Virus record (IMG/VR): IMGVR_UViG_3300047560_001508
Span: 1-45,105 of that record
DNA length: 45,105 nt
Reading direction: 5' to 3' (one strand)
From: a virus
Position numbers and translations under genes: made by a program. Of the stretch, positions 7,856 to 35,041 are shown piece after piece (positions within the stretch are counted from its first letter, which is position 1; every line of letters starts with the position of its first letter). The notes under the pieces were generated by a model, which searched no databases, was not told the DNA's origin, and was given only the letters and a program-made list of their open reading frames with translations.

Positions 7856-7861
7856 TACTGA

Positions 7862-7869: not shown

Positions 7870-7891
7870 TCATATCACATAGGAGAACCAA

Positions 7892-13124: not shown

Positions 13125-13170
13125 CGCAAAATAAATAGGGTATCTAACTCTATGATAAATAAGATATGAA
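13125..13170. repeat. 46-bp direct repeat, copy 1 (upstream of methyltransferase)
   Basis: Starts CGCAAAATAAATAGGG and ends GATATGAA. It is identical to 14084-14129 at 45 of 46 positions (T13151 versus C14110). It contains two ATAAATA boxes and the methyltransferase ATG. Confidence 0.95.
13154..13161 (+). promoter_or_regulatory. GATAAATA late-promoter candidate of the methyltransferase gene
   Basis: The box ends 5 bases before the A of the ATG at 13166. A second ATAAATA lies at 13131-13137. No Shine-Dalgarno sequence is placed correctly for the ATG. Confidence 0.6.
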
Positions 13171-14128
13171 ACCATTGGACGAACACATAACTACCCAACA
13201 ACTAATAGATACCGACTACCGATACAACTATACCCATCAAGAACTCATCAATGATTGGAATAAACTTAGAACTACTACACACTATAAGACAGGCAGTCAA
13301 TTCAAACCTGGTATGAAGTTATGTCAGCATTTTTGTGATAATTTCTGGGATATTCAAAATAGTCAAGGCAATTCATTTGCCAAGTGTTGGCAAGATTATG
13401 ATAAGATGGATAAGATTAGGCAATGGGGTCTGAATTCAATGACTAATTTATGGATGAGCTGGATTCGCAGAGCAGTGTATATGGCTAATGGCTTACCTAA
13501 TAGCAGTTATTATCGACCACATTTCAGCAGACAGATTATAGAGATGACTAACAAAAAGCAAGGCGTCTTGTTTGACCCATGTGCTGGTTGGGGTGGCAGA
13601 ATGCTAGGCACTACCAGTAAAGATTGGCAATATATCTCTTGTGAGCCTAATATAGATACTTACAACAACTTGCTTGAAATCATCGCCTTTACTAATACAA
13701 ACCATTTAGTAAAACTACACAATCATCCAGTAGAAGAACTGGATTTCACAACATTACCTAAAGTTGATATAGTTCTAACAAGTCCACCATATTTCAATTT
13801 AGAAGTATATACAGGCGACAATAATCAATGCTACAATAAGTTTACTACATATGAGTTATGGCGTGATAATTGGTTAGTTCCACTAATTGAAAAATCAATA
13901 TCAATATTGAAAGACGACGGTATTTCTGCTTGGAACGTAATGAACTTTGGCGGTAACGATCTTAGTGGTGATGTTATTCAAGCACATAGTAAATTGGGAT
14001 GGACATTAGTAGATACTATTGGATTCAAATCACCACTGGCAAATATTCGTAAAATAAAAAATAAGGATGTGACTTATATATTTCGCAAAATAAATAGGGT
14101 ATCTAACTCCATGATAAATAAGATATGA
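13166..14128 (+). CDS. SPPY-type DNA methyltransferase
   Basis: This 320-residue protein has the AdoMet site FDPCAGWGGR at residues 136-145 (motif I) and the catalytic TSPPYF at 205-210 (motif IV), in that order. SPPY is typical of enzymes that methylate the exocyclic amino group of cytosine (N4) or adenine (N6), not of C5-cytosine methylases. The 130-residue N-terminal part may hold target recognition. The gene is enclosed by 46-bp direct repeats: its ATG lies in the first copy, and its last residues INRVSNSMINKI and stop lie in the second. No cognate restriction enzyme is visible. A role in protecting phage DNA or marking it is likely; it does not supply the substrate for a TAGT enzyme in an obvious way. 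Confidence 0.8.
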   Translation: MKPLDEHITTQQLIDTDYRYNYTHQELINDWNKLRTTTHYKTGSQFKPGMKLCQHFCDNFWDIQNSQGNSFAKCWQDYDKMDKIRQWGLNSMTNLWMSWIRRAVYMANGLPNSSYYRPHFSRQIIEMTNKKQGVLFDPCAGWGGRMLGTTSKDWQYISCEPNIDTYNNLLEIIAFTNTNHLVKLHNHPVEELDFTTLPKVDIVLTSPPYFNLEVYTGDNNQCYNKFTTYELWRDNWLVPLIEKSISILKDDGISAWNVMNFGGNDLSGDVIQAHSKLGWTLVDTIGFKSPLANIRKIKNKDVTYIFRKINRVSNSMINKI

Positions 14129-14129
14129 A
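14084..14129. repeat. 46-bp direct repeat, copy 2 (end of methyltransferase)
   Basis: Matches 13125-13170 with one mismatch. The ATG of copy 1 here begins a four-codon frame (14125-14139), and the same bases supply the TGA stop of the methyltransferase. Confidence 0.95.
14113..14120 (+). promoter_or_regulatory. GATAAATA late-promoter candidate (repeat copy 2)
   Basis: Second copy of the repeat-borne box. An ATG 5 bases downstream begins a four-codon frame that ends by overlapping the ATG at 14136. Confidence 0.55.
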
Positions 14130-14147
14130 CAAATCATGAGGCAACAA

Positions 14148-14537
14148 ATGACCAAACCAAATCAATCAACCACAGCAAATCAACCAAATCAACCAAATCA
14201 ACCCAACTGCCGAATTCATTTAGATACTGATACATTGCTTAAACTAGCACTGGTAAAACTAAAAACTACCCAACAACAATTCACCGAACAAGCCGCAAAG
14301 CAGATAGACTTAGCCAATGCCAAATATCTAGGCACTGACCGAAAAACTTTCAAGCAAATCTGTCCAACTACCCGTGAGCCCTACTACCGTGATGAATATC
14401 TATGGTCAACTCGTGATTACCTTATCAAAACAACCCAACACGGCAAAATCTTAGATGTCGAGCGGAAACCACAATCTATTATGAAGCCTATGAAGCCTAA
14501 GGTTATTGTAAAGAAAAAGAGGACATTCACCAAATGA
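14148..14537 (+). CDS. Hypothetical basic protein with NQP repeats
   Basis: I prefer the ATG at 14148, with GAGG 6-7 bases upstream, over the ATG at 14136. The 129-residue product begins with a low-complexity tract NQPNQPNQPN encoded by three AAATCAACC repeats. A central helical part (LKLALVKLKTTQQQFTEQAA) and a very basic end (KPKVIVKKKRTFTK) follow. No family is recognised. The basic tail suggests nucleic-acid binding. Confidence 0.55.
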   Translation: MTKPNQSTTANQPNQPNQPNCRIHLDTDTLLKLALVKLKTTQQQFTEQAAKQIDLANAKYLGTDRKTFKQICPTTREPYYRDEYLWSTRDYLIKTTQHGKILDVERKPQSIMKPMKPKVIVKKKRTFTK

Positions 14538-14908
14538 AACAACACAGATCACTAAAGGGAACAACACGATGGTATCGCATTGTTGATGGCGAGGTAGAAC
14601 GCTGTCATCGTAGACCTGATGAAATTCTTGATTCATCATGGCAGCGTGGTCTTGGTCCTATTGATAATGCGCACTGTGCGGCTATCAGTAGTTCTACTTT
14701 AAAAGGAATTCCTAAATCTCCGATTCAGCGAGAGCGCATGAGAGCAGCTAAATTAGGTATTACTAAATCCCCAGAACACCGTCAAGCAATGAGTCAAGCA
14801 CACATCAATCGCCATAAACAAATTCACCGTTTAATGTCTGAGCATGGTATTAAATGGAGTGATGCTTGCCAATTATATAAACAAAACAACAAACAAAACA
14901 ATAAATAA
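14534..14908 (+). CDS. NUMOD-like DNA-binding protein, possible homing-endonuclease remnant
   Basis: This 124-residue protein overlaps the upstream gene by ATGA. Residues 56-93 carry GIPKSPIQRERMRAAKLG and then ITKSPEHRQAMSQAHINR, two copies of the NUMOD3-type helix pattern found in homing endonucleases. The end resembles a short helix-turn-helix (HGIKWSDACQLYKQ). No GIY-YIG or HNH catalytic part is visible, so it is either a lone DNA-binding protein or a remnant. Confidence 0.6.
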   Translation: MKQHRSLKGTTRWYRIVDGEVERCHRRPDEILDSSWQRGLGPIDNAHCAAISSSTLKGIPKSPIQRERMRAAKLGITKSPEHRQAMSQAHINRHKQIHRLMSEHGIKWSDACQLYKQNNKQNNK

Positions 14909-14926
14909 TTTATAAATCTACTAATT

Positions 14927-15175
14927 ATGACAATAACTACCAACCCAACCTACTATGTTCGTCAGTTTGAAGACGGCACCGTTCAAGTTACTATGGATCA
15001 ACAAGGCTATCAGCAGTGGCAGAGTGATATTGAAGAACTACACCGCCTACGTCAAATGATCGACTACGCCAATAACCCACAACAATCTCAAGAGCCGCAA
15101 GAGCCGCAGGCTACCGTAGTTGAGCAGTTAATGAGCTTACCACTAGAAAAACCAAAACGAGCACGAGGAAAATAA
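14927..15175 (+). CDS. Hypothetical protein, 82 aa
   Basis: This 82-residue, Gln-rich protein (QQGYQQWQ, QQSQEPQEPQ) has a predicted beta start (YYVRQFEDGTVQVTM) and a basic tail KPKRARGK. AT-rich DNA including TATAAATC (14911-14918) lies directly upstream and may act as a late box; there is no clear Shine-Dalgarno sequence. The stop overlaps the next start as TAATG. Confidence 0.55.
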   Translation: MTITTNPTYYVRQFEDGTVQVTMDQQGYQQWQSDIEELHRLRQMIDYANNPQQSQEPQEPQATVVEQLMSLPLEKPKRARGK

Positions 15176-15453
15176 TGTCTATCTTAGAGAGCAAATACTG
15201 CGCACATGTAGCGCCGTCACCGCACAAGCTACATCGAGTCAAGCCTTTAAGCTTTAATACTAGAAGTGACTTGATTACAGACCCAGTTGAGGTTCTCCAA
15301 ACCACAGCGGTTAATGTCTGTGATGACATGATGACCAGGTTGGTAGATGACTTAGAGCTAGTTGATGACTTGTATCAATTTGTTAGAGAGCAAGGAATGT
15401 TACAGCATTTCGAGTACTGGCAGACAATTAATAGACTTAAGAAACCACTATGA
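15175..15453 (+). CDS. Hypothetical protein, 92 aa
   Basis: This 92-residue protein starts MSILESKYCAHVAPSPHKLH and has an acidic helical second half (LVDDLELVDDLYQFVREQG). It is coupled to both neighbours by overlapping start and stop codons (TAATG before, ATGA after). No family recognised. Confidence 0.55.
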   Translation: MSILESKYCAHVAPSPHKLHRVKPLSFNTRSDLITDPVEVLQTTAVNVCDDMMTRLVDDLELVDDLYQFVREQGMLQHFEYWQTINRLKKPL

Positions 15454-15725
15454 ACTACAAACTTGGACCTGGTCTACCAGAGGGATATCGCTGTAGTGAT
15501 GCTACTAAGATACAAGTAGCATACATGACAGCAATGACTGTACTTGCCGAACAAGCACAGATTATGATTGACCACTCTACACAGCCACAAAACATTCAAG
15601 CCTTTACCGAGCTTAAAGAGTTTGCTGATAACGGCTGGCTAGAAGCACTGGGTGGCACTATCACATGGCGAGACTTACAGTTCCCATTTGGGGAAAACAC
15701 ACAACCAGTTAAGGAAACAAAATGA
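15450..15725 (+). CDS. Hypothetical protein, 91 aa
   Basis: This 91-residue protein starts MNYKLGPGLPEGYRCSDATK, followed by a helix of small residues (VAYMTAMTVLAEQAQIMI). It overlaps both neighbours by four bases. It belongs to the run of small genes upstream of the terminase. No family recognised. Confidence 0.55.
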   Translation: MNYKLGPGLPEGYRCSDATKIQVAYMTAMTVLAEQAQIMIDHSTQPQNIQAFTELKEFADNGWLEALGGTITWRDLQFPFGENTQPVKETK

Positions 15726-15961
15726 GCAGATACCTAATCACCAGAGCCCCAGATGGCGAACATTGGATTACCTTAGACGCACTCTTACAAGATGTCTTAG
15801 AGCAGCTAGACTCACCCCAAGCAAGATCCAAAGACGAAGCCTTCTACGCACTTACTGTAGTAAAAACTTTCTTACAATCCCTAGTAGCCGAGGCACAGTT
15901 AGCCGATTATCTACATCCTAGTAAAGACGATGAGCTACCGTACAAAGACACACTCCAGTAA
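15722..15961 (+). CDS. Hypothetical protein, 79 aa
   Basis: This acidic 79-residue protein starts MSRYLITRAPDGEHWITLDA and is mostly helical. It is coupled to the upstream gene by ATGA. A 66-base spacer without a gene follows. Function unknown. Confidence 0.55.
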   Translation: MSRYLITRAPDGEHWITLDALLQDVLEQLDSPQARSKDEAFYALTVVKTFLQSLVAEAQLADYLHPSKDDELPYKDTLQ

Positions 15962-16027
15962 GGTGTGGTTACGACTATATCGTCTTCACTTGTATCAAAC
16001 TTATACTAAAATAATTGACTACTTAAA

Positions 16028-16381
16028 ATGAAACAACTAATAGACAAACCTAACAACCAAAACATTCGTGTGTTTGATCGCATGGTTGCTGAGCTCTCAC
16101 GCTGGATGACCGATGAGGAAATAGACAAGTGTGTTGGATTCTTAGATCAGATTGCTGGATCTCAGTGGGATATTAATCCTACCTTAGATGACAGCAAAAC
16201 ACAGCTTAAGATTATCTTAGGCGGTGATAGATATGAAGAGATTAAAGCACAGTGGAGCATCAAGAACCAACATCTCATCAAAGATGGCAAAACCAAATAC
16301 ATACACAAGACAACTAAAAAAGTGTATGATGGCTTAGACCCACATGATGATCCGCTTGACTATACTATGATAAAAATGTAA
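16028..16381 (+). CDS. Hypothetical protein, 117 aa
   Basis: This 117-residue protein starts MKQLIDKPNNQNIRVFDRMV and contains a helical N-terminal half and a polar C-terminal half (KTKYIHKTTKKVYDGLDPHD). No good ribosome binding site is seen. A TATACT string at about 16003 might be a promoter element, but no -35 box fits. No family recognised. Confidence 0.5.
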   Translation: MKQLIDKPNNQNIRVFDRMVAELSRWMTDEEIDKCVGFLDQIAGSQWDINPTLDDSKTQLKIILGGDRYEEIKAQWSIKNQHLIKDGKTKYIHKTTKKVYDGLDPHDDPLDYTMIKM

Positions 16382-16389
16382 ATATAACT

Positions 16390-16397
16390 CATAAATA
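16390..16397 (+). promoter_or_regulatory. CATAAATA late-promoter candidate
   Basis: The box ends 5 bases before the ATG at 16402, the same spacing as at the methyltransferase gene. No Shine-Dalgarno sequence is present. Confidence 0.5.
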
Positions 16398-16401
16398 ATA
16401 C

Positions 16402-16740
16402 ATGAGCACAACTACACCCGAATCTCAACAACCACCTAAAAAGCCACGTGGCTCTAGATTTACCTTATATCCAGGTGATATAAAACGCAACATCACTTAC
16501 AAGGACATGGCAGTTAGATTGTATTACTCAGTACAACACCTAGAAGCAGAAGAATCAATCATGCCGCATGTGCTGTTAGATGATGCTTATCAAATGGCAG
16601 GTATGCTCTTAGAAGCAGAGGGATTACAGCCTGATGAGACGGTATTAGATCGTGTAGTGTTTCATTATCTAAAACTTCGTCAGCAATGTGCTAATCAGAT
16701 TGTAAAAGAAATAACACCAACGAAGGCAGGTAAACAATGA
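16402..16740 (+). CDS. Hypothetical protein upstream of terminase, 112 aa
   Basis: The 112-residue product has a Pro/Lys-rich start (QQPPKKPRGSRFTL) and a helical body (MAVRLYYSVQHLEAEESIMP). It is coupled to the small terminase gene by ATGA and lies 5 bases after a late box. It may be part of DNA packaging, judged only by position. Confidence 0.55.
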   Translation: MSTTTPESQQPPKKPRGSRFTLYPGDIKRNITYKDMAVRLYYSVQHLEAEESIMPHVLLDDAYQMAGMLLEAEGLQPDETVLDRVVFHYLKLRQQCANQIVKEITPTKAGKQ

Positions 16741-17138
16741 CAATACAAATAGAAACTTTAGATAAACCTGAAAATAAACCTGAAAATAAACCTGAAAATA
16801 AGCCTAAGCGCAAACCCTATAGCGTGAAATCACCATCACGTGGCGGTGCTCGCAAAGGCGCTGGTCGCAAAAAGGGTAAGACTAATAAGGTACAATACAC
16901 TGACTTGTTAGAAGAACTACATCGGGCTACTGGTAAATCATTTGCTGAACTAATTGCAGATGAAGTAGTCAAAGCAATTACGGCAGGTGATTCACGCTTA
17001 GTTAAAGATTACCTAGACATGGTAGGCAAGAAAGCAATTGCTGATAAATCTGAGACTGATATCACTTCTAATGGTGAAACCCTACAGGCAGCGTTTCAGT
17101 TTGTTGCTACTGAGTTACCTGATTGGCGAAATGACTGA
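16737..17138 (+). CDS. terS: Terminase small subunit (probable)
   Basis: This 133-residue protein has three PENK repeats near its N-terminus (residues 10-23) and then SRGGARKGAGRKKGK, the Gly/Lys-rich stretch common to a family of phage small terminase subunits. A helical DNA-binding and oligomerisation part (YTDLLEELHRATGKSFAEL) follows. The large terminase starts 8 bases before its stop. It would recognise packaging DNA and feed it to the large subunit. Confidence 0.7.
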   Translation: MTIQIETLDKPENKPENKPENKPKRKPYSVKSPSRGGARKGAGRKKGKTNKVQYTDLLEELHRATGKSFAELIADEVVKAITAGDSRLVKDYLDMVGKKAIADKSETDITSNGETLQAAFQFVATELPDWRND

Positions 17139-18555
17139 ACTCAAATTATTCGGCGAACAAACAACTATTTTACAGGATTGGCTCGAAACAGACAAGAACT
17201 GTATGGATATTGTTCCCGTTGGTAGTGGTAAAACATTCTTAGCGTCCCTAGCGTTACCTATCTTCGCAAGTGATAGTCGTTATCACAAGGGCAAAGATGT
17301 TATCTATTCGGCTCCTACACGTGAGATGATTAAGACCCTAATATGGAGTCCACTTGTAGACTCTTGTAAATCATACTTCAATATTAACCCAAAAGATATT
17401 AACAACAGTGATCTGACAATCAAGTTTCCTAATGGAACGTATATTCGTTGTAAGTCAGCAGAACAAAAAGAAAACTTACGAGGTATTAACGCTGGTATTT
17501 GGGTAGCCGACGAAGCATCCTTATACAGTGAAGAATCCTTACTAGAAATTACTAACCGTCTGAGACCTAAAGTTGGTGATTATCTTAGTGAAGGTCGTAT
17601 GATTGTAATCTCCACACCTAATGGCGCTAATGCCCTGTTCACACTATTCTCTAATGCTAAGAACATGCCTGATCGTTGGATTGTTCGTCATCTTACATAC
17701 GAACAAATGCGAGCAGGTAATAGAGCATTCATTGAGCAACAGCGCAAGATTCTGTCTCCACTTAAGTTTGCCAAAGACTATAACTGTGTATGGGAATCGG
17801 TAGAGGACAAGTTCTTTATGGCTTGGAATCGTACCATGTGCGTAGAAGAAGTTATGGACCGTGGTGGCGACTTATATACCTTCCACGACTTCAACTCAAA
17901 GCGTATGTGTGCCATCGTAGCACAAGTTACTAACCCTGGAACACTACAAGGAACAATTGAAGTCTTAGGAACCTACGCTATCCCTAATTGTTCTACAGAA
18001 GGAATAGCACAAGCGATTCGCCGTGATTACTCACAGCGTAACATCTATGCTGTTATTGACGCAACAGGCTCACATAACAATCGCTCAACTACTTCTGCTT
18101 TTGGCATCACTGATCGTACTATCTTAGAGAAGTGGGGATTTACTATCTACAACAGCACACGCTCTAATCCACTGGTTAGAGATACTGATAACTCCGCTAA
18201 CGCATTCATTGCTCGTGGTGGTCTTAAGGTTAAGGCAAGTGAGCAATTACTGTTAGAAGCACTTGATAACTATCACTATGAAGATGCTTCACGCATTAAG
18301 CTAGTAAAATACAGTGAGCAACAATTCGCACACATGGATGCGCTTGGCGACTGCCTACGTTACGGTATTCATCACTTATTCTCCTTACAGCACAATGAGC
18401 GTCCTAGCAGTGCCAACTACATTACGGATGTTCAGATGCCACAGCACACACCTGGAGCTGAGCATCGCAAGCAGGGCGTTATGGGCTATGGCACTCCAAC
18501 TATGGAAGAAATACTAGCTGGATCTACCGAGAGCCCTAACTATGTTGTTTGGTGA
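17131..18555 (+). CDS. terL: Terminase large subunit
   Basis: The 474-residue protein starts at ATG 17131, which overlaps the small-subunit stop; the in-frame ATG at 17038 is too far upstream. The ATPase part has Walker A VPVGSGKT (28-35), Walker B IWVADEA (123-129) and coupling motif ISTPNG (160-165). The RNase-H-like nuclease has FHDFN (Asp253), VIDATG (Asp310) and MDALGD (Asp403/Asp407). It cuts and pumps DNA into the prohead through the portal. No good Shine-Dalgarno sequence is seen, so expression probably depends on coupling to the small subunit. Confidence 0.9.
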   Translation: MTELKLFGEQTTILQDWLETDKNCMDIVPVGSGKTFLASLALPIFASDSRYHKGKDVIYSAPTREMIKTLIWSPLVDSCKSYFNINPKDINNSDLTIKFPNGTYIRCKSAEQKENLRGINAGIWVADEASLYSEESLLEITNRLRPKVGDYLSEGRMIVISTPNGANALFTLFSNAKNMPDRWIVRHLTYEQMRAGNRAFIEQQRKILSPLKFAKDYNCVWESVEDKFFMAWNRTMCVEEVMDRGGDLYTFHDFNSKRMCAIVAQVTNPGTLQGTIEVLGTYAIPNCSTEGIAQAIRRDYSQRNIYAVIDATGSHNNRSTTSAFGITDRTILEKWGFTIYNSTRSNPLVRDTDNSANAFIARGGLKVKASEQLLLEALDNYHYEDASRIKLVKYSEQQFAHMDALGDCLRYGIHHLFSLQHNERPSSANYITDVQMPQHTPGAEHRKQGVMGYGTPTMEEILAGSTESPNYVVW

Positions 18556-18561
18556 TAAATA
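18554..18561 (+). promoter_or_regulatory. GATAAATA late-promoter candidate before portal
   Basis: The box overlaps the TGA stop of the terminase. Four bases after it, an ATG (18565) opens a four-codon frame (M-R-T-N) whose TAA overlaps the portal ATG at 18579. Confidence 0.6.
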
Positions 18562-18578
18562 ACTATGAGGACTAACTA

Positions 18579-20192
18579 ATGCTAAAGTCAATATTAACGG
18601 CAAAATGCGCACAGTATCTTGCCACCGAGTCGCAAATGACTAACTACCAACTTGCGTACTTAAACGGAGAGTTGTTCCGTAGATCTACTCGCAAAAAGCG
18701 TCCAAGCGAAGACGCTGCTATCTATACTGATGTTATTCAACATACAGTAGCAATTCCGCTTGCTCGTCACGTTGTTGATACTATCAATAACACAGTGTTC
18801 GAGCCTAAAATTACCCGAGACTTACAGTTTGTTGGTGAGAGTGGTACGGTTGTTGATACTACCACACAAGAATGGACCGAGCTTTTCTTGTTAGACGCTG
18901 ACTTATCTAATACGTCACTTGATGGAGTAATGGAGAACATTGGCGATCTTACAAGCGTGTTTGGTCATTGCTGGGTGTTTGTAGACATGCCATATAACGA
19001 TGGTATACCAGATCCAAGACTACGCCCCTATGTTATACCTATTTCACCCCTACATGTATGGGACTGGGACTTTGTTGCCGTTCGTGGTCAGCTTATACCA
19101 AAATACATTAAGGTTCTTGAGCATGAGGATGACGAGTGCTACAGATTCAAGTGCTATTATCTAGGAACAAGTAAATCACCAAGCTACTGGGAAATCTACG
19201 AAGTAGAAAAAACAACACAGCAAAATATCGTTGACCCTGATATACTACCAGTTGCTACTGGTGAGTTTCCCGTGGGTATGAGTATTCCTGGATTTATGGC
19301 ATTTACTCGTCGTGATCCACGCTCACTAACCTTAGGCATCTCAGACATTGATGTGGCAACAGACGTACAAAAAGAAATTTATAAACTTGAGGCAGAGGCA
19401 TATCAAGCTGTTCAGTTTGCTAGAACCCTAATTCGTGTTGATACTGGTAGTAATATTACGATACCTGCTCACGCTGGCGGCATTGTTAAGGCTAATGAGG
19501 GTCAAGTAGAGGCTATCAAGATTGATACTCAAGATGTAGCAACTATTATGGATAAGCAACGAGCACTGCTTGATGATTTCTACTCACTAAGTGGATTTGC
19601 GGGCATGCGTCAGAGTAAGTCACAGTCACAGAGTGGTATCTCTATTATTCAAGAGCGTAGAACACTACATCGCATCGCTGGCGCAAAAGCACGACTACTA
19701 GAAATCTGCGAAGAGAGTATTTGGACATTTGCCTCACGATACATGTCGGTTCGTTGGGCAGGTGAAGTAGCATATGGCGACGACTACGACTCACACGACA
19801 CTGACTATCGCATTGCTCTCTTAGAAAAAGCACAACAGATGTTACCTGGAAACCCTGTTATTAATGGTATTGTAGCAAGAGAGTTGATCAAAATGATTTC
19901 TCCAGAGAGTCAAGCGGAAGACCTTATCGCTGCTATGATAGATACACAAGTAGGTGAGTCAACAATACAGATTATTGAAGACACCAAAGACGAAAAAACA
20001 CAAACAAGAGACACTGGCGATCAAACACCTGAGTCTTTAGAAGAAGATAGTAAGCAAGACATGATTGAAGATAACGAACAGACTTCTAAGGACTTGTCTA
20101 ACAGCGGTATTAGATATACAGGTCAGAGCTACTATGGACCAGATGCTGTTGTAGCTCAGCTTGGTATGGCAATGGCAGGATCAGGAAGATAA
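18579..20192 (+). CDS. Portal protein
   Basis: The 537-residue protein follows the terminase and has typical portal features. These are a helical N-terminus, a beta-rich wing with P-Y-V-I-P-I-S-P, a KEIYKLEAEAYQ clip helix, and FAGMRQSKSQSQSGISIIQE before an aromatic C-terminal helix (WTFASRYMSVRW). The end is acidic and Gln-rich. It forms the ring at the capsid vertex for DNA passage. GAGGA upstream serves as ribosome binding site, and a four-codon leader frame overlaps its start. Confidence 0.85.
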   Translation: MLKSILTAKCAQYLATESQMTNYQLAYLNGELFRRSTRKKRPSEDAAIYTDVIQHTVAIPLARHVVDTINNTVFEPKITRDLQFVGESGTVVDTTTQEWTELFLLDADLSNTSLDGVMENIGDLTSVFGHCWVFVDMPYNDGIPDPRLRPYVIPISPLHVWDWDFVAVRGQLIPKYIKVLEHEDDECYRFKCYYLGTSKSPSYWEIYEVEKTTQQNIVDPDILPVATGEFPVGMSIPGFMAFTRRDPRSLTLGISDIDVATDVQKEIYKLEAEAYQAVQFARTLIRVDTGSNITIPAHAGGIVKANEGQVEAIKIDTQDVATIMDKQRALLDDFYSLSGFAGMRQSKSQSQSGISIIQERRTLHRIAGAKARLLEICEESIWTFASRYMSVRWAGEVAYGDDYDSHDTDYRIALLEKAQQMLPGNPVINGIVARELIKMISPESQAEDLIAAMIDTQVGESTIQIIEDTKDEKTQTRDTGDQTPESLEEDSKQDMIEDNEQTSKDLSNSGIRYTGQSYYGPDAVVAQLGMAMAGSGR

Positions 20193-20193
20193 T

Positions 20194-20673
20194 ATGCTAG
20201 AAAACAAAACACAAACAGAACAACAGGAAGCAGAGAGCCTTCCCTCCCTAATAGACTCACTAAGAACTACTCTAGCAACCTTAGCAGTCTTCAAGCATAA
20301 AACACACGCATTTCACTGGAATATCGTAGGCTCGAACTTTGTTCAATATCACGAGCTATTCGGTGACATATACACATACACAGACGACACTATTGATACA
20401 TTAGCAGAGTTTATTCGCCAGTTGGATCAATTCGCTCCTACTACACTAGCCTCACTCGTAGAGCTTAGTTTAGTAGACGAAGAGCCAAGAGTTCCAAAGG
20501 CAGAAAAGATGCTGTCTACTACATTAACAGACTTAGAAACTATCATTGAGCAAGTAGAAGAACTTGCTGATAGTGCTAATGCTGAAGATGAGTATAGCAT
20601 TGCTAACTATGCTGCTGATCTACAAGGAGCTTATTCTAAGTTCCGTTGGAAGATAAAAAGCACTCTAGCTTGA
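20194..20673 (+). CDS. Dps-like ferritin
   Basis: The 159-residue protein starts at ATG 20194. It carries the Dps signature FKHKTHAFHWNIVGSNF and then YHELF. Ferroxidase ligands by analogy with Dps are His41, His53, Asp68 and Glu72 (IDTLAE). The position four after His53, normally an acidic ligand, is Gly57, with Asp58 next to it. The Arg after AE is Phe. SLVELSLVDE also matches the family. Dps proteins oxidise iron with peroxide and protect DNA. It lies between portal and scaffold genes and so is expressed late, perhaps packed with DNA or protecting it from host peroxide. Confidence 0.8.
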   Translation: MLENKTQTEQQEAESLPSLIDSLRTTLATLAVFKHKTHAFHWNIVGSNFVQYHELFGDIYTYTDDTIDTLAEFIRQLDQFAPTTLASLVELSLVDEEPRVPKAEKMLSTTLTDLETIIEQVEELADSANAEDEYSIANYAADLQGAYSKFRWKIKSTLA

Positions 20674-20724
20674 TATCTCTAAATACACTACTCGACCGTT
20701 ACGTCACAACGAAAGGAAAATAAC

Positions 20725-21534: not shown

Positions 21535-21575
21535 TCAGTTTTATTGCGCTAGTACTAATACTATTAGCGCTAACT

Positions 21576-21583
21576 GATAAATA
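21576..21583 (+). promoter_or_regulatory. GATAAATA late-promoter candidate of the capsid gene
   Basis: The box lies after a GCGCTA/TAGCGC hairpin (21546-21570) and 137 bases before the capsid ATG, with a structured leader between. Confidence 0.6.
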
Positions 21584-21588
21584 TTATT

Positions 21589-21719
21589 ACTCGGTGACTC
21601 CGCATCGTCAACTCGGTGACTCCGCATAGTCAAAGTAGGTTACAAGGTGGAGTCACCTGTATTCCTGTTAGCGACAATGGTGTCGTTCTAACGAAAACAT
21701 GCTAACAAAGGAAACAAAA
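21589..21719 (+). promoter_or_regulatory. Structured leader of the major capsid mRNA
   Basis: Two 22-bp tandem repeats (21589-21610 and 21611-21632, one mismatch) each contain GGTGACTCC. A single complement GGAGTCACC (21649-21657) can pair with either copy. A further hairpin GTTAGCGACA/TGTCG-TT-CTAAC (21667-21692) stands just before the AAAGGA ribosome binding site. The leader may stabilise the mRNA or control the high translation the capsid gene needs. Confidence 0.65.
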
Positions 21720-22721: not shown

Positions 22722-22736
22722 GATTAAGGTCATAAA

Positions 22737-23656: not shown

Positions 23657-23680
23657 TAGCCAACTACACAAGGAGAAATC

Positions 23681-24154
23681 ATGGCACGTATTACTAACAC
23701 TACAACTGGAACACAACCAGTTATCACTATCAAAACATCTTCAGGAGATACTGGTCTGACAATCCCGTTCATTCAGGATATCACAGTTACTAACTCTACT
23801 GGTGTTTATAGTTACACAACCTTCAGTGACATTGACACACGCAAGTTGTCTACACCAGCTGACAACGAAATCTCTACTAACATCGTTATCGATGATACTG
23901 TATATTTCGGCGACAGCGCAGCAACAGCAGGCTCAGCTGCAGCTTCAGGTCTAGCAAAACTATCTACCGATAAAGTATCTATTCTGTTTACAGTATACTG
24001 GGCAGGAAACACTTCTTCATCAACAGATCGTATTACTACAGGTAGCGGCTTTATTAGTTCGCTAGCACCTACAACATCTCCTGATGCTCCTGTATGGGTC
24101 ACTCCATTAACTATCGCAGTTGATGGTTCAATGACTACAACTACAACAGGTTAA
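23681..24154 (+). CDS. Major tail (tube) protein
   Basis: This 157-residue protein is rich in Thr, Ser, Gly and Ala and largely beta, as tail tube proteins are. It comes after the completion protein and before the chaperone genes, and is followed by a strong terminator, which fits a need for high expression. AAGGAGA lies before the ATG. No Ig-like extra domain is seen. Confidence 0.75.
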   Translation: MARITNTTTGTQPVITIKTSSGDTGLTIPFIQDITVTNSTGVYSYTTFSDIDTRKLSTPADNEISTNIVIDDTVYFGDSAATAGSAAASGLAKLSTDKVSILFTVYWAGNTSSSTDRITTGSGFISSLAPTTSPDAPVWVTPLTIAVDGSMTTTTTG

Positions 24155-24177
24155 TCTTCCTAGGGATGGGAAGGCAG

Positions 24178-24209
24178 GGGAGGCTATTCACAGAGTAGTC
24201 TCCCTTTTT
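24178..24209 (+). terminator. Intrinsic terminator after the tail tube gene
   Basis: Stem GGGAGGCTA/TAGTCTCCC (8 pairs plus one G-T wobble), 9-base loop, then TTTTT. It separates the highly expressed head and tube genes from the tail chaperone and tape-measure genes. Confidence 0.85.
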
Positions 24210-24216
24210 AACAAGT

Positions 24217-24224
24217 GATAAATA
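24217..24224 (+). promoter_or_regulatory. GATAAATA late-promoter candidate of the tail assembly genes
   Basis: It lies 7 bases after the terminator's T-run and ends 3 bases before the ATG at 24227. The next transcript therefore starts almost at its first codon. Confidence 0.65.
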
Positions 24225-24226
24225 GT

Positions 24227-24424
24227 ATGAACAAAGATAATAGATGGCTTACTGATGAGGGTGAGATACTCGCATCACTTATCGCCGATGAAGCAAAAGC
24301 CAAAGCAATCTTAGTTGATATGGAGAGTTCGCTTCGTCAACTAAAAGCAAAGTCCAGTTTTAGACTGGCACTACTTAACAGCCTTGCTGAAAGTAGAAAC
24401 AAATCACAGAAAGAAAACAAATGA
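24227..24424 (+). CDS. Hypothetical 65-residue protein
   Basis: The ATG at 24227 lies 3 bases after a late box and has no Shine-Dalgarno sequence; the GTG at 24215 is inside the box region and unlikely. The protein is a charged helix (EILASLIADEAKAKAILVDM) with a Lys-rich end. It is coupled to the tail chaperone gene by ATGA. Function unknown; a tail assembly role is suggested by position. Confidence 0.55.
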   Translation: MNKDNRWLTDEGEILASLIADEAKAKAILVDMESSLRQLKAKSSFRLALLNSLAESRNKSQKENK

Positions 24425-25267: not shown

Positions 25268-25276
25268 GAGGACAAG

Positions 25277-27805: not shown

Positions 27806-27813
27806 GGAATACT

Positions 27814-28503
27814 ATGAGTCTACAAACAATAATAAACATCAGTGATCAAATAGAGATTAATCGTCGTCGTGTTGTTGGTATTATGTACACACGCAACGAG
27901 ATTATTAGAACAGCAGAGACACCAACACGCAACCCTTGGAAGATTACAGTTCGTGCTACAAGCTCACTTAAGTATAGTGACGCAAGAAAAGTATTAGAGA
28001 CGATTGATCATTTAGATCGCTCGACACCTAGCATCATTAGTTTTTCTAGTTTAACTAATTTTGCTTGGATGTTTATGTATCAAGGTGATCTTACTGCCGA
28101 GCAGAGAGCAGCAACAACGGTGTTATCATTTACTGGTAACCAACTGCGACTACAGCTTCCTAGTAATACCTATTCATCAACAACAAAGATATTTGCTGCT
28201 GGTGATATCGTACAGATTACTAACTATCCTTACCCAATGACTATAGTAAACGATGTGTTTGGTGTAGCTGTTGATAACTCTAGTCGTGTTACAGTTACTA
28301 CACATCGTGGAAACTTTATGGGTAACAATGTTATTGGGCAAACACTAAACTGGGGTAATGATGTACAGTTTAAGGTAGTGTGTGTAAACATGCCAACATA
28401 CAAACTTCTGCCTGGCGCTTATACAGTGCTGAATGGAGTGGTCATAAATAATGCTAGAATAGAGTGGTCTGACAACTTCTCACTTGTTGAGTATGTCGGA
28501 TAA
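27814..28503 (+). CDS. Minor tail protein (distal tail region)
   Basis: This 229-residue beta-rich protein follows the tape measure. Features are RRVVGIMYTRNEIIRTAETP near the start and repeated Val/Thr-rich strands ending in WSDNFSLVEYVG. Position matches the distal tail or λ M/L-type genes. AAGGAA precedes the ATG. Confidence 0.65.
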   Translation: MSLQTIINISDQIEINRRRVVGIMYTRNEIIRTAETPTRNPWKITVRATSSLKYSDARKVLETIDHLDRSTPSIISFSSLTNFAWMFMYQGDLTAEQRAATTVLSFTGNQLRLQLPSNTYSSTTKIFAAGDIVQITNYPYPMTIVNDVFGVAVDNSSRVTVTTHRGNFMGNNVIGQTLNWGNDVQFKVVCVNMPTYKLLPGAYTVLNGVVINNARIEWSDNFSLVEYVG

Positions 28504-28512
28504 AGGAAACAA

Positions 28513-29115
28513 ATGACAACAGTAATCAATGAAGTAAACAACAAAACCTCAATCAAGTCAGCAGAGTTCGTAGAGTGGATTAAGTACGATCTTGCTACTG
28601 ACCAACCAACTCGCTACTATTTCAGCACAGCATACAAAGACGAAAACATCATTGTTGATGGTGTTAATCGTGTATTTGACAGCTTAGGTGGTCTAGTACA
28701 GATAGGCACACAGCAGCGAGATATTAAGGCTACGCAGTTTGAGACTAGTATTATCTTAATGGGTGTTGATCCAGAGAGTGTGTTTCTTGTAGTAGATAGA
28801 GCAACAAAAGGCAGCTCTATTCGTATTTGGCGTGGATTCTATGACGATAATCTAACTCTTACTAAGACTTATCTGCGCTTTACAGGCACAGTTACCAGCT
28901 ACACTACCGATGAAGAGTATAAGCTACAAGAAAACACAATGAACTTGGTTCTAAACTGTAGCGCTAACAAATACCTACTAGAAGGTATGTTTAGCGGCAG
29001 GAAAACAAACACAAATAGTTGGGCACAGAAACTACCAAGCGGAGTTACTGATACTGCTATGTCCCAAGTAGCCTCACTTAGCGGCACCGCCTTTGACTTT
29101 GGTAAAAAAGCATGA
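28513..29115 (+). CDS. Minor tail protein (L-like)
   Basis: This 200-residue protein has patterns of hub-connecting minor tail proteins: VEWIKYDLATDQPTRYYF, IKATQFETSIILMGVDPESV, then IRIWRGFYDDNLTLTKTYLR and FTGTVTSY. These resemble λ gpL-type or DUF2163-type proteins. The stop overlaps the next gene by ATGA. No Cys-rich iron-sulphur motif of λ gpL is seen. Confidence 0.65.
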   Translation: MTTVINEVNNKTSIKSAEFVEWIKYDLATDQPTRYYFSTAYKDENIIVDGVNRVFDSLGGLVQIGTQQRDIKATQFETSIILMGVDPESVFLVVDRATKGSSIRIWRGFYDDNLTLTKTYLRFTGTVTSYTTDEEYKLQENTMNLVLNCSANKYLLEGMFSGRKTNTNSWAQKLPSGVTDTAMSQVASLSGTAFDFGKKA

Positions 29116-29528
29116 TAACAGACGCCGTAAAATCAATCATCAAGGCAGACTACGAGAGAAATCACGGTGGTAGAGACTACTCTTTAGAAGAGTACACTAA
29201 CAATGTTAGTCGCTATCTTACTAATCTTGGTCGTGCCGTAATCAGTAGCAATGTTATTATTATCTGGGATCGTCTAACAACACAAGACATTGAGTTTCAC
29301 ACAATCAATGGTGGAACACCAGAGCAGCTGGTACACGAGGTAGTCAAACAGTTAGAGCTATGGAGTATAGATAACAAGTCAGCGTGTACCTACTACGATA
29401 ATCCTGATATCTCAGCGCTAGTAGAGCTACAATCATCACACTATCCACATCTTAAGTATACTATTAAAAAGGTTGACTTAGGTGAAGATATGACCTACTG
29501 TCTAACCTTTCACTTGGAGAACAAATAA
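29112..29528 (+). CDS. Tail-tip associated hypothetical protein
   Basis: This 138-residue protein is coupled on both sides (ATGA and TAATG). It starts MITDAVKSIIKADYERNHGG and lies where λ has gpK and gpI. No peptidase motif (JAMM or NlpC/P60) is present, so it is not a K homologue. Function unknown. Confidence 0.55.
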   Translation: MITDAVKSIIKADYERNHGGRDYSLEEYTNNVSRYLTNLGRAVISSNVIIIWDRLTTQDIEFHTINGGTPEQLVHEVVKQLELWSIDNKSACTYYDNPDISALVELQSSHYPHLKYTIKKVDLGEDMTYCLTFHLENK

Positions 29529-32500
29529 TGGGTGCCGTTAAGAAAGTTGCCAATGCTGTTGTTGGTACAGTAAAAGCCATTATTAGTAATCCGCTAACCG
29601 CTATCGCTGCGGTTGCTCTTGCTATCTACGCACCTGGACTTGGCTTACGCTTGCTAGGGTCAATGATTGTTAGTAGTATATTCGCACCAAAACCAGAAGA
29701 CCCTAAAGACGGTGCTAGTAACGCAGATCCAGGAAATCGACAGCAGCTACCACCTGCTACAGATAACAAACTACCTGTAGTATTTGGTACAGCATGGGCA
29801 TCACCAATCATTACTGATGCTAAGATATCAAGCGACAACCAAACCATGTGGTATGTTATGCCTATCTCTGAGGTTACGGATGGCGGTACTATTACCTTTG
29901 GTGATATGTACTGGGGTGACAAGAAGTGTAACTTTGGTACTGGAGCAGATGTTAACAAGGTTGTTAGTTTTACTGATGGTACTGGTGTAGTTGATACCAA
30001 AATTAATGACAATATGTGGGTATACTTCTACAATGATGGTAGTAGTAGCCCAACTCGTGGAACAACAGCAACTGCTATTGAGGTAATGAATCAGAGTGGT
30101 ATTCCAGAAGCACAGCGTTGGGATAGTACCAAGCGATACTACAAGACAGCATTTATTATTGTTAAGTTGGTGTATAGTCAAGATGATAACGTTACAGGCT
30201 TGTCTAAGGTTACCATTCAGACAATGAACACACAGACAGGACTAACCACTGGCTATCGACCAGGTGCTGCTATGTATGAGTATCTAACTAATAGTCGCTA
30301 CGGTGCTGGACTACCAGCTTCACAGGTCAACAAGGCAAGTTTTGATGCGCTTGATGTGTATGCTGATACTCAAATAACTTTTACTACCTACGACAATCAA
30401 ACATCCACTTTCAACAGATATCGTTTTGATGGTGTCTTAGATACATCTCGCTCAATCATGAGCAACCTACTAACAATGGCAGAGTGCTGTGATTCGTTTG
30501 TTCAGTTTAATGAAGGATTAGGGCAGTGGAGTATTATTGCTAATCGTCAGTATCTAAGCGATAGTTATCGCAATCGAGAAGCAACTGACGCAGAGAAATT
30601 ACAACTATTCCAGTTCACCGACAGCAATATTATTGGTGGTATCTCTATCACTCCGCTTGATATGAACAGCACACCAAACAGTCTTGAGGTAAGTTTCCCT
30701 AATACTACTATCAAAGACCAAGTTGATTTTGCCTATTCATACACAGGCGCTAACTTGCGTAATAAAAACGAGCCAGACAATCAGATTCGTGTTAGTTTAC
30801 CGTTCGTTAATAACAACGCTCGTGCTCAGTATGTTGCTAACAGAAAACTAGAGCAGTGTCGTGCTGACTTTATTATTGAGCTTACGGCAGACTACAGCGC
30901 TATTCAGGTTGATGCTGGCGATGTAGTGTGTGTAACATACGCACCCTTTGGTGGAACAGGACTAAGATGGGATTTGAAAGAATATCGTGTCTTACAAGTT
31001 CAAGAAAACACTGGTACTGATGGTACAGTTATCTGTAAGTTTCAGCTTAGTGAGTATACATACAAGGTATATGACGACAAGAGTATCAGAGAGTACACAC
31101 CACCACCTGCTAACCAAGTTACTGACCCTAATAACCTAACTAAGCCTCTAACACCAACAATCAGTAATATCATCTCAACTGCTGCTGCTCCGTCATTCCA
31201 AGTTAACTGCTTGACATCATCTACTGGTGTAACCTCAGCAATGGAGTTTTGGTACTCGACTACAAGTAACAACACCAACAATAGTTACAAGCTGTACGCA
31301 ACACAGTATCACAGTAGCAACAGCAACTACAAAACCAGTGATCCAGAGAGCACAACTGTTCTTGGATTACCACAAGGAACTTACTACTGGCGTGTTCGTG
31401 CCGTTGGTTTCCAAAAGAAGAGTGAGTTTAGTGATCCAGTATCAATCAACTGGAACCCAACAACGGTTGCTAGTGGAACAAGCGGAACTACCTTTGAGTG
31501 GAGTCCAACAGCACTATTCTGCCCTAGTGATAGCACAGGTACCGTTACAGTTATTGGACAAAAGGGCGCAGTTAGTCTTAAGATAGGAACAGAAACTGTG
31601 CCTGTGTGGACATACAGCGCAGTTGGAACACAGCCTAACAATACTTGGACGCTATCTGCGATAAACATATCATCAGGCATTACAGTCAGTGCTCCTATCT
31701 ATAGCACTGCTAGTAATAACATTGGCTTTACAGTAAACTCTCTAACTACGGATCAAGCAACCGTTACTATGGTAGGGTGTACCTACAAAAATAGTAGTGG
31801 GGCTATTACTTTATTACCAACTACAAGTATTCAAGTTACAAAAGTAAAGGCTGGTACTAAAGGCACAGATGGTGGTAGTGGTAGTCGTGGTATTGTCGCT
31901 CTAGCATATGTACCTGTTACATACAACCCTACTACTGCTACGGACTCATCACTAACTACTTCTTTCTGCTCAACAACAGGGTATAGTAATCCTATTGATG
32001 GTGATGGTGCCTACTTTGTAAACACAACTAGTGGGATAAGCAGTCCAAGAAAGTTCTATGGAGCATCTACTCCCCAATGGTCTGTTGCTGTGTTTACAGT
32101 TCCAGGCGAGTCAATATCAGCAAACAGCTTGGTTGGTGATCAGATCAAAGGTAATACTCTTACTGGCAACAAGATTGTTGGTAATACTATTACTGGTGAC
32201 AAAATATCTGGTGCCACAATCACTACTGACAAACTTGCTGCTAATATTATCACAGCAGACAAGATTGCCGCTAATGCTATTACTACAGACAAGCTGGCTG
32301 CTAACACAATCACCAGTGATAAGATTGTTGCTGCCTCTATCACTAGTGACAAACTTGCTGCCAACGTTCTTACAGCAGTAACTATTCAGGCTAACTCTAT
32401 CACTAGTAATATGATACAGGCAAACGCTATCACTACTGATAAGCTGGCTGCTAACGTTATTACCAGCGACAAGATTGCTGCTAACTCAATTACTAGCGTT

Positions 32501-34942
32501 AGTATCGTTGCTAATGCTATTACCAGCGACAAGATACTTGCTAACTCAATCACAACAGACAAGCTACAGGCAAGATCAGTTACAGCAGACAAGATTGCTG
32601 CTGGCGCTATCACTACCAACTCACTTGCCGCTAACCTGATTATCTCTGGTGATATCTACAGTAACAATACCGTTACTATTAACTCGATTACGCTAGGAGC
32701 AGCAACAACCGTAACTGTCGCACAAGGTTCATTCCCTACATGGAGTGGCAAGACACCACCTAAGGTAACTATCCCATATAACGCACCAAGTTCGTCTTGG
32801 ATTGGACAGGTGTTCTATGCTAAGGTTATTAGTGTTACTGAGATTGGCTTATTCCTTAATAGTGCCCTAACTATCCCATTTGCTTCACAAGCAACAACAC
32901 AGGTATGGACACCTAATCCAGCAAGCAAGCCGTACTTACAGTTCGTTCTTGGTGACAACAGTAGTCCAGGCTACTGGCTACAAGCTAACACAGGTAATGC
33001 TCGTTTTGGTGGAACCGTTAGTATTGGTAACTCACTGTATGTAGACAACTTGATTGAAGCTGGCGCACTGATTGCTAATAGTGTTACTACAAGTATGCTT
33101 GCTATTGGTACTGCTCAGCAGAGCCGTAGTAATCAAGACGATCCTGCTATTGCTATCGCTCCATACTATAACTGGGGAACTGCTAGCCCTATGTGGCCAG
33201 CAAACACACGCTCAATCATACCAGCAGGCGGCGTTACAATCAATACTACAACCGATGGTGATGTTACAGGTAATACCATGTATACAGAAGGTCCACGAAT
33301 TGAAGTTCAGATTTCTTGTAGTATTGTTGCTGAAGGTAACGCTAACACTACCTACAACTTTGTAGAAGTATGGAAGAGTAAGCCAAGCTCATACTACGGT
33401 AAACGAGTTTTAAGCGTTAAGCACAGTTATGATGTTGGAACATACAACGGCTCCATTCCCATTAGTACTACAAACGCAAATACTGCTAATCCAGTAGTTA
33501 CTGCTGTTGGAACAGGTGGGCTTGACTACATCAGTTACGATGGCGGCGTTACTTGGTCTCAGTATCGTAATGACACAGATAACGTTACTATGAACAGCCA
33601 TGTTACACTCTTAGCAGACTCAACATACACAACTAATGGTACTGGTCTTGTTATGGGTGGTGACTATGTTGGTCCATCTCAGAAGATTGAGACTCACGGG
33701 TACATCGGCGCAGTCAATGCTGGTGCTCGTAGACAGTCTAAGGATCCAAATTTTAGACCTATCTGGTGGAATCCAAGTCAGTCATTATGGAACCCCGTCA
33801 CAAATTCTGTGTATCCATCGTTTAGTATTTCGGACGCAAAACAGCCAACTATAAATGATATTCAAGTAGCAGTCAATCCAGGAGGTCGCACTCTGTACAA
33901 TAAGTTCTCCAGTAGTCCTTCCGCATATCATCTTTACTATTCTGTAGGTGATGCGGGAACTATCTTTGCTACATATAGAACTGGTATGCTTAGCCCTGAC
34001 AATTATGGCGACGAGTCTACTAGTGTGCTGTACAACTACTATGGTAGTGCGAAAACTAGAAAAGAAAACAGCAATACGCTACAACCACTTCGTGGTGTGT
34101 ACAGTAACGCACTTGATAACCTTAGAAACTATACAGTTGTTGTTGTCGGTCACTCATGTACTATTCTTGTTAGCAGTAAGAATGCTGACTTTGAGCCATC
34201 ATACTCCACTCCGTTTATTCAATGGACACAAAAGCGCATATATGTAAAAGACGCTAACGGTAATGATACAACAACACCACTACTAAACGACTTATACAGT
34301 GTCGCTGGCGATAACAAGATAAACTCTAGCTCATGTCGCTGGGTTGCTGTTGGTAAAGGCGGTTTTATTGTAGTATCTACAGACAACGGTGCTAACTGGA
34401 CACAAGTAACAAGCCCTACTACACAGAACCTAAACCAAGTTCGCTATCACAGAAACAGCGCAACTCAGTCAGCAGGTCGTTGGGTCGCTGTTGGAGATAA
34501 TGGAACTATCATTACTGCTCGTGACGATAATATTACCTCTTGGTCTGTAGTCGCAAGTCCAACAACACGACACCTAAACACCATCGACGCCGTACCTGTA
34601 TGGAATCGCTGGAGCGTTGGTGGTGATAGTATCATCCTTACAGCACAAGAAGTAGCATACCAAGTACCAACCTTTACGATTACCAACCTGAACTTTGGTG
34701 CTGACGAGAGTTTTGACTACCAGCGTATTTGGTATCGTGGCAGTAATATTCTTGTAAACGACACCTCAGCGACTACAACTACACAGCAGATTCTGAACGG
34801 TGAGTCAATTACAGCAACTATTATTGACCATGACTACAAGAAGGACACTACTGTTACCTACTGGTTAGTTCTAGGTAATCTTAAAGGCGCTCGTATCTGG
34901 ACTGGTGGTCCATTCATTATGGTCACAGAGTACAAGCGATAA
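29528..34942 (+). CDS. Tail tip/host-specificity protein (J-like)
   Basis: This 1804-residue protein has an N-terminal hydrophobic segment (LTAIAAVALAIYAPGLGLRL), then LPVVFGTAWASPIITDAKI. These are typical of λ J-like tips, followed by the conserved hub region. Fibronectin-like beta domains lie at about residues 540-700. Residues about 864-1037 are many copies of AITTDKLAAN-type 11-residue repeats, likely a trimeric stalk. The C-terminal end has RWVAVGKGGFIVVSTDNG and RWVAVGDNGTIITARDD, two clear propeller-like BNR repeats plus weaker ones. It contacts the host and closes the tail. The stop precedes a late box. Confidence 0.8.
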   Translation: MGAVKKVANAVVGTVKAIISNPLTAIAAVALAIYAPGLGLRLLGSMIVSSIFAPKPEDPKDGASNADPGNRQQLPPATDNKLPVVFGTAWASPIITDAKISSDNQTMWYVMPISEVTDGGTITFGDMYWGDKKCNFGTGADVNKVVSFTDGTGVVDTKINDNMWVYFYNDGSSSPTRGTTATAIEVMNQSGIPEAQRWDSTKRYYKTAFIIVKLVYSQDDNVTGLSKVTIQTMNTQTGLTTGYRPGAAMYEYLTNSRYGAGLPASQVNKASFDALDVYADTQITFTTYDNQTSTFNRYRFDGVLDTSRSIMSNLLTMAECCDSFVQFNEGLGQWSIIANRQYLSDSYRNREATDAEKLQLFQFTDSNIIGGISITPLDMNSTPNSLEVSFPNTTIKDQVDFAYSYTGANLRNKNEPDNQIRVSLPFVNNNARAQYVANRKLEQCRADFIIELTADYSAIQVDAGDVVCVTYAPFGGTGLRWDLKEYRVLQVQENTGTDGTVICKFQLSEYTYKVYDDKSIREYTPPPANQVTDPNNLTKPLTPTISNIISTAAAPSFQVNCLTSSTGVTSAMEFWYSTTSNNTNNSYKLYATQYHSSNSNYKTSDPESTTVLGLPQGTYYWRVRAVGFQKKSEFSDPVSINWNPTTVASGTSGTTFEWSPTALFCPSDSTGTVTVIGQKGAVSLKIGTETVPVWTYSAVGTQPNNTWTLSAINISSGITVSAPIYSTASNNIGFTVNSLTTDQATVTMVGCTYKNSSGAITLLPTTSIQVTKVKAGTKGTDGGSGSRGIVALAYVPVTYNPTTATDSSLTTSFCSTTGYSNPIDGDGAYFVNTTSGISSPRKFYGASTPQWSVAVFTVPGESISANSLVGDQIKGNTLTGNKIVGNTITGDKISGATITTDKLAANIITADKIAANAITTDKLAANTITSDKIVAASITSDKLAANVLTAVTIQANSITSNMIQANAITTDKLAANVITSDKIAANSITSVSIVANAITSDKILANSITTDKLQARSVTADKIAAGAITTNSLAANLIISGDIYSNNTVTINSITLGAATTVTVAQGSFPTWSGKTPPKVTIPYNAPSSSWIGQVFYAKVISVTEIGLFLNSALTIPFASQATTQVWTPNPASKPYLQFVLGDNSSPGYWLQANTGNARFGGTVSIGNSLYVDNLIEAGALIANSVTTSMLAIGTAQQSRSNQDDPAIAIAPYYNWGTASPMWPANTRSIIPAGGVTINTTTDGDVTGNTMYTEGPRIEVQISCSIVAEGNANTTYNFVEVWKSKPSSYYGKRVLSVKHSYDVGTYNGSIPISTTNANTANPVVTAVGTGGLDYISYDGGVTWSQYRNDTDNVTMNSHVTLLADSTYTTNGTGLVMGGDYVGPSQKIETHGYIGAVNAGARRQSKDPNFRPIWWNPSQSLWNPVTNSVYPSFSISDAKQPTINDIQVAVNPGGRTLYNKFSSSPSAYHLYYSVGDAGTIFATYRTGMLSPDNYGDESTSVLYNYYGSAKTRKENSNTLQPLRGVYSNALDNLRNYTVVVVGHSCTILVSSKNADFEPSYSTPFIQWTQKRIYVKDANGNDTTTPLLNDLYSVAGDNKINSSSCRWVAVGKGGFIVVSTDNGANWTQVTSPTTQNLNQVRYHRNSATQSAGRWVAVGDNGTIITARDDNITSWSVVASPTTRHLNTIDAVPVWNRWSVGGDSIILTAQEVAYQVPTFTITNLNFGADESFDYQRIWYRGSNILVNDTSATTTTQQILNGESITATIIDHDYKKDTTVTYWLVLGNLKGARIWTGGPFIMVTEYKR
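32150..32640 (+). repeat. Tandem coding repeats of the tail-tip stalk
   Basis: Repeating 33-base units encode I-T-[TS]-D-K-[LI]-A-A-N plus variable residues, about 14 times. Codons vary between copies, so selection keeps the protein pattern. Such repeats are common in phage J-like proteins and fibres. Confidence 0.8.
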
Positions 34943-34954
34943 AACAATCACAAG

Positions 34955-35029
34955 CTACGGTCTTTTTTCAAACTATGATAAATATTAGTATGAGTAGACC
35001 GTAGTCCCCTCAAATCGAGCCGTAGCTCG
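34955..35029 (+). promoter_or_regulatory. Late-promoter region with inverted repeats before the fibre genes
   Basis: A GATAAATA box (34977-34984) lies in the loop of a perfect 9-bp inverted repeat CTACGGTCT/AGACCGTAG (34955-34963 with 34996-35004). An ATG 6 bases after the box opens a four-codon frame (34990-35004). A CGAGC-CGTA-GCTCG hairpin (35016-35029) precedes GGAAAGG, the ribosome binding site of the gene at 35042. Confidence 0.65.
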
Positions 35030-35041
35030 GAAAGGCATCCA

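Follow-up and report, generated by a model that had tools for sequence, protein, structure and literature searches.

The window, i.e., the whole stretch of 45,105 bases analysed here, is an IMG/VR virus record with a siphovirus-like late block that contains the terminase, portal, major capsid, tape measure and tail genes. No close relative of this phage was found among annotated phages, its capsid protein had no match in phage records, and a capsid scan of genome contigs for host assignment found no relative. The window encodes a homolog of the T4 late sigma factor gp55, which matched 592 phage records in a tblastn search:

6986 to 7783, + strand: T4 gp55-like late sigma factor of 265 amino acids, presumed reader of the late boxes (phrog_12791, E = 2e-58; phrog_234, E = 8e-26)

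Along with this homolog, ATAAATA boxes were present on the late strand with an AT-rich flank, as in T4-type late promoters. A second gp55 homolog was found in the related contig G003 (1220 to 2068), and a search of the relatives' available sequence gave matches only in the window and G003. Many of the other contigs are fragments that possibly do not include the region, but some long contigs, e.g., G009 and G016, were also negative. We infer that gp55 reads the boxes in this phage; in the relatives with no gp55 match it is a candidate reader.

The gp55 of the T4 type ends in a hydrophobic clamp-binding tail (PMC2988020), whereas both homologs found here have hydrophilic residues at the C-terminal end. 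The T4 late system also uses gp33 and gp45, and neither turned up in a PHROGs scan that covered 30 proteins, with part of the small early ones among them. Given the hydrophilic ends and the scan result, late transcription in these phages may not need the sliding clamp.

Spacing is given below as d, which counts the bases that separate the final A of ATAAATA from the A of the ATG. Since the T4 late promoter box spans -13 to -6 (PMC2988020), a d of 5 puts the A of the ATG at +1. The start positions given below are predictions transferred from T4 by homology, and they are indirectly supported by the peak at d = 5 described below.

Upstream of two early genes, an ATAAATA box lies 4 to 7 nt beyond a sigma70 promoter and is itself followed by a strong Shine-Dalgarno (SD) sequence. 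The promoters are TTGACT-17-TATGAT at about 7830 to 7892 on the + strand and TTGACA-17-TATCAT around 5560 on the - strand, and the pairs are possible tandem early/late promoters.

Late boxes with a nearby ATG

The initial annotation had pointed to six ATAAATA boxes that closely precede an ATG with no SD sequence upstream. All six were confirmed in both respects, with d ranging from 2 to 5:

13155 to 13161, + strand: late box, d = 4 to the ATG at 13166
14114 to 14120, + strand: duplicate late box within a 46-bp repeat, d = 4 to the ATG at 14125 (MNKS, then stop)
16391 to 16397, + strand: late box, d = 4 to the ATG at 16402
18555 to 18561, + strand: late box, d = 3 to the ATG at 18565 (MRTN, then stop); the predicted start, G18567, lies within this ATG
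24218 to 24224, + strand: ATAAATA box, d = 2 to the ATG at 24227, which lies upstream of the predicted start
34978 to 34984, + strand: late box, d = 5 to the ATG at 34990 (MSRP, then stop)

The ATGs at 13166, 16402 and 24227 open genes of 320, 112 and 65 codons, and those at 14125, 18565 and 34990 open frames of four sense codons each. The stops of the 14125 and 18565 frames overlap the next ATG (TCATGA and TAATG). The arrangement ATAAATA-N2-5-ATG was expected 0.76 times in the window and seen six times, a count reached in none of 100 shuffles. When only the 30 nt after 11 boxes were shuffled, the mean was 0.73 (P = 5e-5). Boxes 13155 and 14114 are not independent, because both lie inside the 46-bp direct repeat, and the result holds with the duplicated promoter counted once. 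Several further boxes in the window, e.g., 12851, 14901 and 21577, have no near ATG.

Spacing between box and ATG in related loci

A related capsid protein was found on 269 IMG/VR contigs, and further relatives were collected through the terminase, the portal and other proteins; the comparison set consisted of 133 related IMG/VR loci (1.4 Mb). Non-redundancy was set by 60% context identity, under which distant copies of one ancestral start may be counted repeatedly. Such repeat counting does not carry the spacing result, because several gene families contribute to it independently according to the ortholog tables. The boxes in these loci had a clear strand bias (237 vs. 23, non-redundant), and the logo of their flank, ATAAATACATTATA, resembles that of T4.

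In the frame test, we asked for 553 non-redundant TAAATA sites whether an ATG at a given d opens at least 50 codons. At d = 5 it did so in 22 of 27 cases (P = 9e-9 for the enrichment), and at d = 4 and d = 6 the counts were 13/25 and 8/13. The proportion was 1/19 at d = 3 (P = 2e-7 for d = 5 vs. d = 3) and 9/57 at d = 8 to 13. Other sense codons at d = 5 opened such frames in 117 of 450 cases, and GTG and TTG were at this background level (4/17). AUG was thus preferred over GUG and UUG, as is typical of leaderless mRNAs. The number of ATGs at d = 5 that open at least 50 codons was itself raised: 11 were counted where permuted heptamers gave an expectation of 1.35 (P = 2e-7), and a larger set had 14. 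The variant boxes CTAAATA, GTAAATA and TTAAATA, which had not been used in discovering the pattern, repeated the d = 5 peak.

T4-type promoters need an AT-rich stretch downstream of the box, with the consensus CATTATA. The near ATGs could be a by-product of this stretch, in which TATG is frequent, with a few of them gene starts by chance. The flank consensus makes an ATG at d = 3 to 4 common, a spacing at which the family set has 22 short frames, and in view of the AT-rich flank we adopt this account for the three four-codon frames of the window. For the pattern as a whole it is unlikely, as it leaves unexplained the contrast between d = 5 and d = 3, the absence of SD sequences and the null result for GTG and TTG. 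An ATG at the predicted +1 is nearly always a start, and an ATG two bases nearer, which transcription would cut, is not. Leaderless translation fits these observations, and we see no simple alternative.

The gene-opening ATGs fell into two groups, one at d = 4 to 7 without SD and one from d = 15 upward mostly with SD. The gap between d = 8 and 13 was nearly empty (2 vs. 10.3 expected, P = 0.002). SD-led genes followed the same promoters at 15 to 30 nt, and the leaderless candidates across the family, like those in the window, lacked an SD sequence. Binding of ribosomal protein S1 to AU-rich sequence ahead of genes without an SD has been discussed (PMC5397173), and TAAATA might be a translation enhancer of this type on longer mRNAs instead of a promoter. 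This we consider highly improbable, because the same heptamer is found 15 to 48 nt before SD-led genes in the family, and because the distances peak at the +1 of T4 and are nearly absent from d = 8 to 13.

A test that made no use of the boxes gave the same signal. Among 882 non-redundant gene starts, 370 had no SD, and the top 6-mer-by-offset in these was TAAATA at -11 (13 vs. 1.3, P = 2e-9); SD-led starts carried TAAATA at d = 15 to 22. These counts also bear on the host sigma70 polymerase as the source of the leaderless mRNAs. TATGAT or a similar hexamer overlaps several boxes (13151, 34974), and CTATGATAAATA contains TATGAT with an ATG about 9 nt on. However, sigma70 -10 hexamers, unlike TAAATA, have no preferred distance from SD-less starts, and TATGAT is missing from the leaderless cases in which the -12 base is C, G or T, making a sigma70 origin quite improbable.

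Several individual gene families kept the leaderless spacing, which again points to gp55-type promoters with leaderless starts. In the YRYHRYD protein family, d = 5 was found in four lineages and d = 8 in a fifth, while the spacers varied and the first letter of the box was A, C or G; a near-identical copy in L089 reads TTAAATA. In the pair L219/L240 the spacing was kept while the spacer and the -12 base changed. Several of the leaderless candidates are short or homing-endonuclease-like genes. The terminase small subunit genes are predicted to be leaderless at d = 5 to 7 in several contigs and are SD-led in others. With the promoter unchanged, orthologous genes thus appear to switch from one kind of start to the other.

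We also considered that leaderless late starts are general to gp55 phages, and this was rejected: T4 has none, and S-PM2, P-SSM2 and part of Atu_ph07 were near chance. In PA5oct, four ATGs were at d = 5 of ATAAATA boxes against 0.4 expected, with no excess for TAAATA. The 33 gp55-bearing IMG/VR loci gave two non-redundant d = 5 cases (20 of 36 at d = 4 to 6 before dereplication).

Genes and leaders behind the six boxes

The features downstream of the six boxes are as follows:

13166 to 14128, + strand: DNA methyltransferase of 320 amino acids, predicted leaderless from geometry (PF01555, E = 7e-7)
14148 to 14537, + strand: gene with its likely true start after box 14114 (d = 27, SD GAGG at 14138 to 14141; alternative start at 14136)
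16402 to 16740, + strand: gene of 112 amino acids, the first of the terminase small/large subunit operon, with an in-frame TAA (16396 to 16398) just upstream of the ATG
18579 to 20192, + strand: portal gene, SD-led (AGGA at 18568 to 18571), d = 17 from the box
24227 to 24424, + strand: gene of 65 amino acids, incompatible with a leaderless start from box 24218
34990 to 35041, + strand: 52-nt leader with the hairpin CGAGCCGTAGCTCG and the SD GGAAAGG before 35042
35042 to 35512, + strand: gene of 156 amino acids after the tail gene, SD-led here

The best leaderless case in the window is 16402. Its ortholog in L003, at 48% identity, has CTAAATA-N4-ATG, and this conserved spacing, along with the family spacing statistics, supports the prediction that 16402 is leaderless. 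Both 16402 and 13166 have d = 4, which is one base less than the most frequent spacing, d = 5, and places the A at -1.

For the methyltransferase gene, an in-frame TAA 6 nt upstream of the ATG leaves no upstream start. No homolog of it was found among the family loci, and from its geometry alone (d = 4, no SD, upstream stop) 13166 is probably leaderless. The gene is bracketed by the 46-bp direct repeat (13125 to 13170 and 14084 to 14129, 98% identical), which carries the promoter and in its second copy encodes the C-terminus and stop of the methyltransferase. This arrangement suggests an inserted promoter-gene unit. The real gene after the second box probably starts at 14148; its orthologs are SD-led at d = 20 to 24, with L130 and L132 among the SD-led loci, except for a predicted leaderless start at d = 5 in L123.

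The third gene that had been proposed to open at a late start site did not hold up. At 24227 the predicted start lies past the ATG, the orthologs have d = 2 or an ATG overlapping the box (d = -1), and in the wider family the gene is SD-led, after a terminator and without a box. A leaderless start was rejected on these grounds, and the position of the ATG together with the SD-led wider family makes it probable that a longer mRNA carries 24227, or that box 24218 serves the next gene. A strong terminator hairpin at 24154 to 24225 (folding z-score -5.1) ends the upstream tail gene region directly before this box.

The three four-codon frames had been viewed as possible leader peptides, and with the leaderless genes as one specific late device. 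Our analysis supports the leaderless start as such a device, and gives no support to the short peptide. That start-site ATGs open either leaderless genes or functional four-codon leader peptides coupled to the next gene has in its favor that the three frames are exactly four codons long (chance of a shared length about 0.002, calculated post hoc) and that two of the three stops overlap the next ATG. We nevertheless regard it as very unlikely. None of the orthologous promoters of the portal gene (18579), 14148 and 35042 keeps a start-site ATG with a short frame, the next genes have their own SD, and short-frame lengths in the relatives extend between 1 and 42 without a peak at four. Furthermore, 14125 lies in the repeat and duplicates the methyltransferase start, and the predicted start at 18565 cuts the ATG. 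In the latter promoter, ATGAGGACTAACTAATG supplies the SD of the portal gene, and the portal orthologs are SD-led at d = 17 to 31, with no ATG at the start site in close relatives.

The leader from 34990 begins with ATGAGT, the same as gene 35042 itself. The orthologs of 35042 lack this leader element and are mostly SD-led at d = 15 to 20, with a predicted leaderless start at d = 6 in L131. That 34990 is a relic of a leaderless 35042 start is disfavored, as the close orthologs are SD-led. An inverted repeat, CTACGGTCT / AGACCGTAG at 34955 to 34963 and 34996 to 35004, flanks the late promoter 34978. SD-led mRNAs of E. coli with a 5'-terminal AUG can bind ribosomes at both sites (PMC4965119). 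By analogy, 14125 and 34990 might act as weak ribosome entry points, and nothing suggests selection for them.

A pseudoknot-like element in late leaders

The late leaders of capsid and scaffold-like genes contain a further, very small element, CG[GT]-5 nt-[AC]CG. Its loop pairs 3 to 5 nt downstream, in many cases immediately ahead of the SD:

21592 to 21632: two copies of the element, between box 21577 and the capsid gene at 21699
L055:102, L064:9181, L123:17782, L130:14638 and others: the element in relatives

Of the 30 distinct elements close to a late box, 22 could form at least four such pairs, compared with 5.4 in shuffles. Many compensating changes were seen in the pairing (TGACT/AGTCA, TAGCT/AGCTA, TGATT/AATCA). 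The element looks like a conserved pseudoknot that regulates late translation. A search of Rfam gave no match, including for this element.

Discussion

We consider it likely that this large family of uncultured tailed phages recurrently makes leaderless late mRNAs at gp55-type promoters, with 16402 as one case and 13166 very probably another, 24227 not among them, and the four-codon frames incidental. According to this proposal, a T4 gp55-type late sigma factor would read ATAAATA at -12 to -6, and transcription would start about six bases downstream. Most late genes would have an SD in a leader no shorter than about 10 nt. A minority would lack an SD and have their transcript begin on the A of the ATG, to within one base of +1, and ribosomes would initiate on the 5' end of the leaderless mRNA. 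The three four-codon frames would be incidental 5'-end AUGs on ordinary SD-led late mRNAs.

To our knowledge, what is known of leaderless mRNAs in Gram-negative phages comes mainly from single cases, and here a phage-specific late promoter seems to give them recurrently. A literature search, with subscription papers mostly outside its reach, returned no earlier report of leaderless late T4-type genes. Since orthologs appear to use either kind of start, what a leader costs and what it gains could be compared gene by gene. Gene callers that rely on the SD may misplace such starts, and a TAAATA-N4-6-ATG rule would correct them. It is conceivable, though rather unlikely, that the leaderless late genes are a translational class of their own, that the phage or its host shifts initiation late in infection toward 70S ribosomes on 5' AUGs, that switching between leaderless and SD-led starts sets timing or amount, and that start-site AUGs on SD-led mRNAs are extra entry points.

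The late promoters of phiKZ have TATG at the transcription start, are read by a phage RNA polymerase and start at the G (PMC4666361). TATG coincides with the start in both systems, with no homology or common mechanism. The 5'-terminal upstream AUGs of E. coli (PMC4965119) resemble 34990 and 14125 in that an SD-led mRNA has an AUG at its 5' end or close to it. Ribosome binding has been demonstrated for them, whereas the AUGs at 34990 and 14125 are not conserved and are putative binding sites. Compared with the T4 late promoters, which work with gp55, gp33 and the gp45 clamp, the promoters here share the 8-bp TATA-like box at -13 to -6, the AT-rich downstream stretch and a gp55 homolog. However, none of the 64 T4 boxes has a gene ATG nearer than d = 12, so that T4 shows no leaderless class, and the family described here appears to have one. 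The cI mRNA of phage lambda has been named as a naturally leaderless phage mRNA (PMC4965119). The late mRNAs here are like the cI type in their predicted 5'-end AUG, the lack of an SD and the preference for AUG, and they differ from it in that many late genes, including the terminase operon, are involved at a phage-specific late promoter.
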